Source: Deltaproteobacteria bacterium (lineage in GTDB: Bacteria > Desulfobacterota > Desulfarculia > Adiutricales > Adiutricaceae). Taken from it: a stretch of DNA of 64,000 nt. The position numbers and the translations under genes are program-made. The first letter of the stretch is position 1, and every line of letters starts with the position of its first letter. A model generated the notes under the pieces. It was not told where the DNA came from. It worked only from the letters and a program-made list of their open reading frames with translations, and did not search any database. The stretch lies in assembly GCA_031265205.1 (NCBI GenBank), contig JAISCZ010000021.1, positions 1-64,000 on the forward strand, read 5' to 3'. Positions 57,346 through 61,619 of this stretch are shown in pieces.

Positions 57346-57500
57346 CCGCCCGGAGGCTCCCGTCACGGCGCGGACTGGGAAGACGTTTCCGCGGGGGCTC
57401 CGGGGTCTAGCCGGTCAGGAGGCGTCGCCTGGTAAGGCGGCGCCGGCGCCAGCAAGACCTGACGCGTATCCAGTGACTCCCTGGACTTGGCCTGTCCATA

Positions 57501-57540
57501 TCCCGTGAAAATCATCGTTATCCCGTGAAAATCATCGTTC
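57501..57540. repeat. 20-bp tandem duplication
   Basis: TCCCGTGAAAATCATCGTT(A/C) occurs twice in direct succession at the 3' end of the coiled-coil gene. The inner copy ends at the stop codon of the restored frame (57518-57520). Like the 22-bp duplication at 12765, it sits on a stop codon. Confidence 0.85.
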
Positions 57541-58169
57541 CGAGGGCGATCGCTATCGCCGCGATTATCGTTATCGCCGCCCAGACTTGGTTGTTTTTTT
57601 GCTCTAAGCCCGTCCAGTTTGCCCTCGAGCCCTTCTTTGAATCCGTTCAGTTCAGCCTTCAGAATATCCTTAAATCCGCTCAATTCTCCCTTGAGTCCGT
57701 CCAGTTTGCCCTCGAGTCCGTCCTTAAGTCCCCTCATGTCTCCCTCGAGTCCGTCCTTAAGTCCCCTCATGTCTCCCTTGAGTCCGTCCATCTTGCCCTC
57801 AAGTCCGTCCTTGAGTCCGCTCATCTTGCCCTCAAGTCCGTCCTTGAGTCCGCTCATTTCGGCCCTGACGCCGCTCAAGCCAGTTTCAATTTTGGAATCA
57901 ACGCGGTTGATTTGTGTCTTGATCTCCATTCGCGCCGCCTGGATCTCAGACTCAAGCTTTCCCACCCTCACGGCTAGATCCACCTCTAAGTGAGCGTAGT
58001 TCGCCTGGGGCTGGGGGAACGGCGCGCCGGAATTCCGCTGTCCTTCCTGGGCCGCCGTCAGAGACGATGGTTCGTCGGGGGCTCGCTCGCCGTCCGCGAG
58101 CGGGGTGGGGGCTGGCGGCTCGTTCTGGCTCCGTGGTCCCGCCGGGATTTCTTTGTTTTGAACGGGCAT
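57518..58169 (-). CDS. Tail-anchored coiled-coil protein with hendecad/heptad repeats, split by an A7 frameshift
   Basis: From ATG 58169 (AAAGGAGG ribosome site) the protein has a Pro-rich N-terminus, then a coiled coil of 11- and 7-residue units (MSGLKDGLEGK twice, MDGLKGD, MRGLKDGLEGD, MRGLKDGLEGK, LDGLKGE, LSGFKDILKAE, LNGFKEGLEGK). As sequenced the frame runs on to 57363 with a low-complexity tail. If one A is removed from the A7 run at 57594-57600, it ends instead in VWAAITIIAAIAIALGTMIFTG and stops at 57518, a tail anchor exactly as in the paralogue at 17834-18259. I treat the TM version as the intended product (about 216 residues). Function unknown. Confidence 0.65.
57620..57850 (-). 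repeat. 33-bp coding repeats of the coiled coil
   Basis: Units of 33 and 21 bp encode the 11- and 7-residue coiled-coil repeats. Copies such as AAGTCCCCTCATGTCTCCC are identical on the DNA level, so the array expanded recently. Confidence 0.8.
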
Positions 58170-58963: not shown

Positions 58964-60631
58964 CTAGGCCTCCGGCGCCGGGCTCTCTGGAGGGCTTTGG
59001 CCGTTGGAGCCCCCCATCGTGGTGACGGCGATTTTGCGGACCGCGGCCGTGGCGTAGAGGCGGTTGACGGCGTTCACGTAGGCCCTGACGCTCGCTTTGA
59101 TGATGTCCGTGGAGGCCCCGTTGCCGTGAGCCTTGATGCCGTCCTGGGAAAGGATCACCTGAGCCTCCCCCATGGCGTTGGAGCGCTCGGAGGTGGCGAG
59201 GATCTTAAAGTTCTCCAGCCTGGGATGGACCTTCACGATCTTCTTGATGGCGGCGTAGGCCGCCTCCACGGGGCCGTTCCCCACGGCCGAGTCGGAAAGC
59301 TCCGCCCCGTTCAAGGTCAGGGTGACGCGGCAGTCCGTGGAGCCTTTGTCCACCGTCATGGAATAGGACTTGAACTCATAGTGGAACTCCGGCTGGACGG
59401 AAAAGATCTCGTCGGAAATTATGGCCTCGATGTCCCCGTCCGTGGCCTCTTTCTTCTCGTCGCAGAGTTTTTTAAAGCTCTCGAAGGCTTGGGTGATCTG
59501 CTCGTCGTCGAGGTTGTAGCCCAAGTGCTCCAAACGGTCCCGGAAGGCGTGCCGGCCGGAGTGTTTCCCCAAAACCATGACGGCGGGGGTGGAGCCCACG
59601 TCCTCGGCCCGCATGATTTCATAGGTCTCCCGCTTGGCCAGGACCCCGTGCTGGTGGATGCCCGCCTCGTGCGCGAAGGCGTTGGCCCCCACCACGGGCT
59701 TGTTGGGGGGCACGACGACCCCGGAGAGCCGGGAAATGAGGCGGCTGACGGGATAGAGGCGGCGGGTGTCCAAATTGGTCTCCAGCCCGAAGTAGTCCGC
59801 GCGGGTCCGCAGGGTCATCACCACCTCCTCGATGGCGCTGTTGCCGCCCCGCTCGCCCATGCCGTTGATGGTCCCTTCCACCTGCCGGACTCCCGCCCGC
59901 ACGGCGGCCAGGGAATTGGCCGTGGCGAGCCCCAAGTCGTTATGGGCGTGCACGGAAAAAATGACCCCCGGGGGAGCGGCGACTCCCTCGATGACCCTAC
60001 GGCAGAGTTTTTGGAATTCCTCGGGGAGGGCGTAGCCCACGGTGTCGGGGATATTTAAGATGGTGGCCCCGGCCTCCACGGCGATCTTAAAAACCTTGAT
60101 GAGAAAATCCGGATCCGAGCGGGAGGCGTCCTCCGCGGAGAACTCCACCTCCGGCAAAAAGGAGCGCGCCAAGAGGACCCCGCGCCGCGTCTGGTCCATG
60201 ACCTCCTGAGGGGTCATTTTGAGTTTGTATTCCATGTGCAGCGGGCTCGTGGCCAAGAAAACGTGGATACGCCCGTTTTCGGCGCTCGCGAGGGCCTGGG
60301 CGGCGGCGCGGATGTCCCCTTCCAGGGTCCGGGCCAATCCGCAGATGGTCGCGTTCCTCACTTCCCGCGCGATGGTCTGCACGCAGCTAAAGTCCCCGGG
60401 GCTCGCGGCGGGAAAGCCCGCCTCAATCACGTCGACGCGCATTTTGGCGAGCTGGCGGGCGATCTGGAGCTTTTCCCCGGCGTTGAGGTTGACCCCGGCG
60501 GCCTGCTCCCCGTCGCGCAAAGTGGTGTCAAAAAAATAGACGCGGGGGTTCTCCCAAGCCCGCGGCGCTTCGCCGGGGGCGTCGTCCGCCCGCGGCGCTT
60601 CGCCGGGAGCGTTTTTGGGGGTCTTGTTCAT
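58964..60631 (-). CDS. leuA: 2-isopropylmalate synthase
   Basis: 555 residues. DTTLRDGEQ at 35-43 and the metal ligands H228 and H230 ([11 protein letters not shown]) mark the HMGL-like catalytic domain; [10 protein letters not shown] and [11 protein letters not shown] follow. The C-terminal regulatory domain (about 400-545, GKHSGRHAF onward, with [12 protein letters not shown] and [12 protein letters not shown] at the tail) is the LeuA feedback module for leucine. It condenses 2-ketoisovalerate with acetyl-CoA, the first step of leucine synthesis. The N-terminal extension contains two copies of APGEAPRA. Other leu genes are not adjacent. An attenuator-like leader precedes it. Confidence 0.95.
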
Positions 60632-60677: not shown

Positions 60678-60714
60678 AAAAAAGAAAGGGCCGGGGTTTT
60701 GAGCCCGGCCCTTT
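60678..60714 (-). terminator. Leucine attenuator terminator upstream of leuA
   Basis: On the minus strand AAAGGGCCGGG (60714-60704) pairs perfectly with CCCGGCCCTTT (60695-60685) and is followed by CTTTTTT. It ends about 47 bases before the leuA start. Upstream bases 60753-60743 (CGGCC, A, CTTTT) can instead pair with TTAAAGGGCCG at 60716-60706, disrupting the terminator: a plausible antiterminator. Confidence 0.75.
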
Positions 60715-60740
60715 AAGCGATATTCCCCGGATTAAGGGGG

Positions 60741-60902
60741 TTAAAAGTGGCCGCGCCGCGCCTGAAGCCTCCGCAGGCTAAGTAGAAGGAGGAGGAGAAG
60801 GCTTAAGGAGAGCGGGGCGATGGCGTAAGCGGGCCAGGTCCGGGACGCGAAGGTGGCGTTCGGGGTGGGGAAAGACTGGGGGTATGTCCCGCTGGCGCGC
60901 AT
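60741..60902 (-). CDS. leuL: leuA leader peptide with seven consecutive Leu codons
   Basis: A 53-codon frame from ATG 60902 to TAA 60743-60741. Codons 31-43 encode LSLSLLLLLLLSL; seven Leu codons in a row (CTT CTC CTC CTC CTT CTA CTT, 60800-60780) lie just before the terminator. It is 27 bases from stop to terminator, and the stop lies in the antiterminator arm. A ribosome held at the Leu codons would leave the antiterminator free. The start is uncertain: the ribosome site is weak (AGAAGC), and the real leader may be shorter. This is a classical leader-peptide layout as in the enterobacterial leu operon. Confidence 0.7.
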   Translation of the reverse strand: MRASGTYPQSFPTPNATFASRTWPAYAIAPLSLSLLLLLLLSLRRLQARRGHF

Positions 60903-61043
60903 TTGCTTCTGAAAAGTCCGTAAGGTTCCGCCTCCGGGCCCAAGGCCAGGGGGAACGGGAAAAAGAGGCGGGCCCTTTAGGGCCCCCTCGCGGGAAAAAC
61001 GATAAACGGCCCCCCGCGTCGCTGGAGGCGGAGGCGTAAAAGA

Positions 61044-61619
61044 TTAGTTAGCTTCTTTCGCGTCTCCTGTCAAGAGTTTTTTCGCGCTTTTTTCCGCTTT
61101 AGTTCCTCCGTCGCGCGCCCCGGTCGGGGCCACGGCGGCGCGACCGGGATCGGGGCCGGGGTCGGGAGCGGGCCCGAGGCCAAGGCTGGGGGAGGTCGCC
61201 GCCACGCCCGCGCGGGGGCGGAAAGAGCGGGGCGGAAAGGGCCTCCCCGTCCGGGCGAAAGAATCCTTAAAGGCGGCGTAGCTCGCCCTCCCGAGGCCCG
61301 GGCAAGCGCTTTGGGCCTCCCTAAAGCCCTCCTCGCTCGCTAAGACGGCCCAAAAATAAGGCCAGGCCGCGCAAATGGGGGGTTTCGCCTCGTGAATGGC
61401 GCAGAGTCCCCCCTCCCAAAAGAGGCAGGGGCCGCCCCGCGCGGGAGAGTTTAAAACGGCGTAAATCCCCCCGCCCTCGTCCCGCGTAAAGCGACGCGCC
61501 GTTTCCTCCGGGCTCAGGGCGAGGAGCGCGGCGACGCGCTCCAATCCCGCCCGGTCCAGGTAGACCCCGCCCGCCCCGTGGCAGCAGCTTCCGCAACGCT
61601 GGCAGACAAAAGCCGTCAC
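61044..61619 (-). CDS. YkgJ-family Cys-cluster protein (Fe-S or zinc binding)
   Basis: About 191 residues from GTG 61619, which places TAFVCQRCGSCCHG at the N-terminus as in other family members; a GTG at 61766 would add an unrelated 49 residues. The CxxCGxCC cluster (C6, C9, C12, C13), then CLFWEGGLCAIHEAKPPICAAWPYF, is the UPF0153/YkgJ signature. The eight or so Cys probably ligate iron-sulfur or zinc. The C-terminal third is a Pro/Gly/Ala tail. It lies between pfk and leuA on the same strand. Function undefined. Confidence 0.82.
   Translation of the reverse strand: MTAFVCQRCGSCCHGAGGVYLDRAGLERVAALLALSPEETARRFTRDEGGGIYAVLNSPARGGPCLFWEGGLCAIHEAKPPICAAWPYFWAVLASEEGFREAQSACPGLGRASYAAFKDSFARTGRPFPPRSFRPRAGVAATSPSLGLGPAPDPGPDPGRAAVAPTGARDGGTKAEKSAKKLLTGDAKEAN

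Follow-up and report, generated by a model that had tools for sequence, protein, structure and literature searches.

A Leu-codon leader and an intrinsic terminator upstream of leuA follow enterobacterial-type leucine attenuator logic in an uncultured deltaproteobacterium

The leuA upstream region

We analyzed a 64,000-nucleotide stretch of DNA from a Deltaproteobacteria bacterium (positions 1 to 64,000 of contig JAISCZ010000021.1; hereafter the window), in which leuA is preceded on the minus strand by a short Leu-rich open reading frame (ORF) and an intrinsic transcription terminator. The genome bin from which the window originates comprises 4.6 Mb and is 85% complete; its closest named relatives are Deltaproteobacteria metagenome-assembled genomes (MAGs), and we infer from the relatives' isolate codes that they stem from a termite-gut survey. 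The features of the region are as follows.

60741 to 60902, minus strand: leader peptide ORF of 53 codons, MRASG...APLSLSLLLLLLLSLRRLQARRGHF, read from the sequence
60780 to 60800, minus strand: seven consecutive Leu codons, the putative control codons (CTT CTC CTC CTC CTT CTA CTT), read from the sequence
60744 to 60757, minus strand: arm 2, the predicted 5' arm of an antiterminator, GGCGCGGCCACUUU, with 12 predicted pairs to arm 3 when folded with a ribosome at the Leu codons
60702 to 60714, minus strand: arm 3, predicted by folding to be common to the antiterminator and the terminator
60685 to 60714, minus strand: intrinsic terminator hairpin of 11 bp, loop at 60703–60696, U-tract to about 60678, from folding and compensatory changes in relatives
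58964 to 60631, minus strand: leuA, 2-isopropylmalate synthase, the regulated gene in the proposed reading (TIGR00973, 661 bits; NF002086, 702 bits; LeuA_dimer domain)

The leader ORF extends from an ATG at 60902 to a TAA stop codon at 60743–60741, and its peptide gave no match in Pfam or NCBIfam. In a six-frame scan of the window, a run of at least six consecutive Leu codons occurred only once, namely in the leader, and when the leader region was dinucleotide-shuffled 300 times and the ORF chosen in the same way, no shuffled sequence equaled the run. These results, together with the coordinates, bear out the 53-codon leader with seven Leu codons described in an earlier note on this DNA. The perfect 11-bp terminator with a U-tract reported in the same note was likewise recovered: eight of its 11 pairs are G-C, the stem is followed by CTTTTTT and has a predicted stability of −20.9 kcal/mol on its own, and it is the sole perfect G+C-rich stem of 10 bp or longer in the window that has a T-tract. 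The Leu run and the terminator, each unique in the window, are separated by 65 nt, and both lie ahead of leuA, which starts at 60631, is preceded by AAGGAG and is separated from the terminator by 53 nt. We note that LeuA is full-length, has its regulatory domain and exceeds the TIGR00973 cut-off; the gene downstream of the leader thus makes the amino acid that would be sensed.

Alternative pairing, conservation and Leu codon choice

We folded the leader RNA with a ribosome at defined positions, taking 14 nt as the distance from the A-site codon to the leading edge of the ribosome and ending the RNA in the terminator loop. For the window, the predicted upstream pairing of arm 3 was 0.89 when the ribosome stood at the Leu codons and 0.07 when it stood at the stop codon, and the duplex between arms 2 and 3 had a predicted energy of −13.7 kcal/mol. 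Over 36 leaders, the corresponding means were 0.80 and 0.41 (paired Wilcoxon p = 9e-11), and composition-preserving shuffles of the intervening region gave 0.67 versus the 0.80 of the real leaders (p = 2e-7). In the prediction, the antiterminator and the terminator exclude each other, and a ribosome at the stop codon prevents the antiterminator from forming, whereas one at the control codons does not; the model, in other words, reproduces the switch. The earlier note had placed the leader stop codon inside the pairing arm, which is incorrect, as the stop lies directly 3' of predicted arm 2 (60757–60744), and a terminating ribosome at the stop would, in the model, still cover this arm. When the states were folded for the window with arm 4 (the partner of arm 3 in the terminator) already made, the terminator won at equilibrium, and the switch must therefore be kinetic, as in known attenuators. 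The whole segment folded modestly more stably than its shuffles (z −1.5), which carries little weight for or against a switch.

We then considered leuA in relatives, where the absence of both the Leu run and the terminator would have spoken against the earlier note; both are present in nearly all same-family leuA loci. A Leu-rich leader and a G+C-rich terminator with a T-tract precede leuA in about 31 of the 33 same-family genomes with readable upstream sequence, including one (L126) that was added by hand because a mismatch in its terminator made the automatic scan miss it, and 18–49 nt separate the stop codon from the terminator in the leaders that were counted. Conservation in the relatives covers the Leu run, not the RNA that precedes it; leader length varies from 24 to 86 aa, and the N terminus is not conserved. 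Two sister families of the order also have leuA leaders, with quite different arms (MKRGLKLSLLLLLGLTGCQGRGGL in L129 and MIYAAKTPLLSLLGLLLSRRRGGL in L135). Among class-level relatives, no attenuator was found upstream of leuA in family f5, where leuA follows another gene. A scan for leaders ahead of ilvB (11 loci) and leuC (3 loci) found none. In the leaders of genus g7 (L010, L011, L012, and L014), Leu is mixed or alternates with Val (VLVLVLTVGLVG), which may make these switches responsive to both.

The arms also covary. Compensatory changes in the terminator helix numbered six cells, compared with a shuffle mean of 0.8, and the sequences of arms 2, 3, and 4 vary in concert, reading CCTGGC/GCCAGG/CCTGGC in genus g5 and GGCGGGG/CCCCGCC/GGCGGGG in the sister families f2 and f3. 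The duplexes formed within these groups had mean energies of −14.2 (g5) and −19.3 (f2 and f3) kcal/mol, compared with −12.6 and −11.0 kcal/mol when the common arm 3 was substituted. RNAalifold on the full alignment found the terminator only, because the antiterminator occupies at least two registers.

Further, the choice of Leu codons is biased. CTT accounts for 69 of the 224 Leu codons (31%) in the last 30 leader codons, compared with 68 of 1118 (6%) in leuA. The ratio of CTT to CTC in the leaders is 93:42, whereas the other NNT:NNC pairs give 139:336 (odds ratio 5.4, p = 1.5e-16, a value that overstates independence since the leaders are related by descent, although the trend recurs in several genera); because these other pairs run in the opposite direction, the excess of CTT is not a general preference for T. 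The excess is greatest in the final two Leu codons of the cluster (43/72, versus 36/146 in the earlier ones). An RNA-structural cause of the CTT choice is possible. In theory, control codons are those read by tRNAs whose charging reacts most strongly to starvation (PMC1183508), and the series of more than 30 divergent leaders offers a comparative test of synonymous control-codon choice, which has been treated in theory (PMC1183508).

Ribosome stalling and its alternatives

Comparison of sequences and folding of the RNA lead us to conclude that the leader is very probably a transcription attenuator of leuA that acts through ribosome stalling, as the earlier note had proposed; conservation in relatives and the predicted switch support this view. 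RNA polymerase would make the leader, with a ribosome following through the 53-codon ORF. When charged leucyl-tRNA is scarce, the ribosome would slow at the Leu run and leave arm 2 (60757–60744) free to pair with the emerging arm 3 (60714–60702), so that the terminator would be blocked and leuA transcribed. When leucyl-tRNA is plentiful, the ribosome would reach the stop codon (60743) and cover arm 2, arm 3 would pair with arm 4, and transcription would end at about 60680.

Several observations weigh against this reading. The folding model depends on the assumed 14-nt footprint and on equilibrium folding of an RNA truncated in the terminator loop, and high GC content by itself yields substantial background pairing. 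Folding without a ribosome still left arm 3 paired upstream (0.86 in the window; mean of 0.80 over the leaders), and the classical 1:2 protector hairpin was not predicted in the window fold; because arm 3 stays paired upstream without a ribosome, default termination by a 1:2 hairpin has no support in the window. (In genus g7, a clear hairpin, GTCGGCC-ttgtg-GGCCGAC, was read by eye.) The ribosome-binding site of the leader, AGAAG, is weak. Among the relatives, the leaders of L019 and L026 are weak and two others are degenerate: L013 has a Leu cluster, but its reading frame continues into the terminator, and the leader of L125 is broken by stop codons. Finally, few independent lineages contribute to the covariation of arms 2 and 3: swapping arm 3 among leaders of the common CCGGG type gave scattered ranks and no discrimination, with only the divergent groups discriminating, and the evidence from the arms thus reflects few independent events.

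The earlier note had named a small membrane protein as the main alternative, in which the ORF would encode a membrane or signal-anchor protein, the terminator would end its own transcript, and leuA would be expressed separately. The window peptide does have a Leu-rich hydrophobic stretch (18-residue hydropathy of 2.27), but a transmembrane-like hydropathy (1.6) is reached in only 18 of the 36 leaders, neither the length nor the N terminus is maintained among relatives, and CTT is favored among the synonymous Leu codons, above all at the two final positions, a bias that speaks for codon sensing rather than for a membrane peptide. As the stop-to-terminator spacing is also narrow and the 53 nt between terminator and leuA leave little room for a promoter, we regard this alternative as highly improbable. 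Control of the terminator by a tRNA-binding T-box or a metabolite riboswitch, with no role for the ORF, is scarcely credible. T-boxes do control leu genes in other bacteria, and the Rfam family Termite-leu (RF01730) is of termite-gut origin, but no Rfam family came near its gathering score in the leader region, and it is the Leu run, not the RNA upstream, that is conserved. At permissive thresholds, Rfam gave only chance terminator-like matches, of which Termite-leu was the best; we rejected it, as its score of 18.9 bits lies far under the cut-off of 51 and nearly recurs on the other strand (18.1 bits), reflecting only the palindromic terminator, and none was found above the cut-off in 40 relatives. 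A leader-peptide switch that works nonclassically, for example through Rho access or through translational coupling, is hinted at by mutational work on Streptomyces leuA (PMC1262725) and would fit the window fold, which lacks a clear 1:2 protector hairpin. Such a switch is nonetheless very unlikely, given that the arms pair alternatively and that nearly all relatives have a strong, conserved intrinsic terminator with a U-tract separating the leader from leuA.

Related systems and neighboring features

The leuA leader follows the logic of the enterobacterial leu attenuator (leuL of Salmonella and E. coli), which it resembles in its consecutive Leu codons, a stop codon just before the terminator, alternative pairing and leuA as the first gene. 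It shows no recognizable sequence relation to leuL (no match to Rfam leader families) and differs in its bias to CTT rather than CTA, its longer leader of 53 codons and a leuA that stands alone. The E. coli leuL leader has a CTA run and 28 codons. Biased, rare Leu codons have been discussed as important in the enterobacterial system (PMC1183508, citing Carter 1986 and Bartkus 1991). The actinobacterial leuA leaders (LEU element, PMC1262725) likewise place Leu codons upstream of leuA, whereas the window leader has an intrinsic terminator. The Staphylococcus aureus ilv-leu attenuator peptide (PMC5794164) is also a Leu-rich leader controlling branched-chain amino acid genes, although in another phylum and another operon, and we liken the two by description, not by sequence. 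Termite-leu (PMC2864571) shares a termite-gut origin and a terminator-like first hairpin, with a score far below cut-off and about equal on both strands. We found no report of a leuA attenuator in this lineage or in termite-gut Planctomycetota in the open literature, where the surveys of Vitreschak 2004 and Lopatovskaya 2010 were known to us through citations only, so that absence is unproven. Our reading would extend Leu-codon attenuation to two termite-gut groups, this uncultured lineage and Planctomycetota, with more than 30 divergent leaders forming a natural mutational series.

The best matches to LeuA outside the family are MAGs of Planctomycetota and Synergistaceae, mostly from the same survey, at 58–65% identity; the LeuA proteins of the same-order families f2 and f3, at 46–49%, fall below them. 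In the LeuA tree, which did not contain f2 and f3, the planctomycete L044 adjoins the family and Synergistaceae come next (99% SH-aLRT). A Leu-rich leader and a GGCCGGG-type terminator precede leuA in four Planctomycetota (L044, L045, L184, and L185) and one Synergistaceae (L051); in L182 and L187–L189, which have the same LeuA type, the scan found no attenuator. This suggests that leuA has been exchanged across phyla, perhaps together with its attenuator. It is a speculative and rather doubtful idea that leuA and attenuator form a regulated cassette moving between termite-gut phyla (this deltaproteobacterial family, Planctomycetota and Synergistota), with CTT selected at the last two control codons and a single scarce Leu-tRNA isoacceptor thereby determining the sensitivity. 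Trp-codon leaders are also found: the window genome has a trpE leader, MILAIRQPNSFLFAVNEAWRWRGSNRGFA (WRW), read by eye and followed by a terminator (L171, G000:C81), and sister-family genomes have WWWW leaders ahead of trpE (L166 and L167). Such leaders with terminators ahead of trpE show that the lineage employs control of this type, which favors the attenuator reading of the leuA leader. L169 is also among the loci with a Trp-codon leader and terminator upstream of trpE.

Upstream of the leader lies one further feature:

61045 to 61073, minus strand: putative sigma-70 promoter, TTGACA-17-TAACTA, with a weak −10 element, from the sequence and analogy with relatives

A promoter-like site matching at least 10 of the 12 consensus bases occurs upstream of 20 of 38 related leaders, compared with 2.8% of shuffles, and by analogy the window site, despite its poor −10, is a possible promoter. 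Between it and the leader, a small hairpin (GGGCCC-TAAA-GGGCCC, 60970–60985) is followed by a T-rich stretch, and several relatives have a GC-rich hairpin at the corresponding place; it is perhaps a 5' stabilizer or a weak early terminator. The genes upstream encode a CxxCxxCC protein and a phosphofructokinase. The description of leuA as a lone gene holds in the window and in the same-family loci read, but not in sister family f2, where leuC, leuD, and leuB follow leuA. In L034, L041, and L043, leuA is followed by pheT, recognized by the start of its sequence, which is not obviously the case in the window; the differing downstream gene suggests a rearrangement. LeuA has an N-terminal extension (60560–60631) in which a segment, APGEAPRA, is repeated; the conserved part of the enzyme starts near residue 30. 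A coiled-coil-like protein with tandem GLKDGLEGKM-type repeats, matching no curated family above cut-off, is encoded at 57363–58169.
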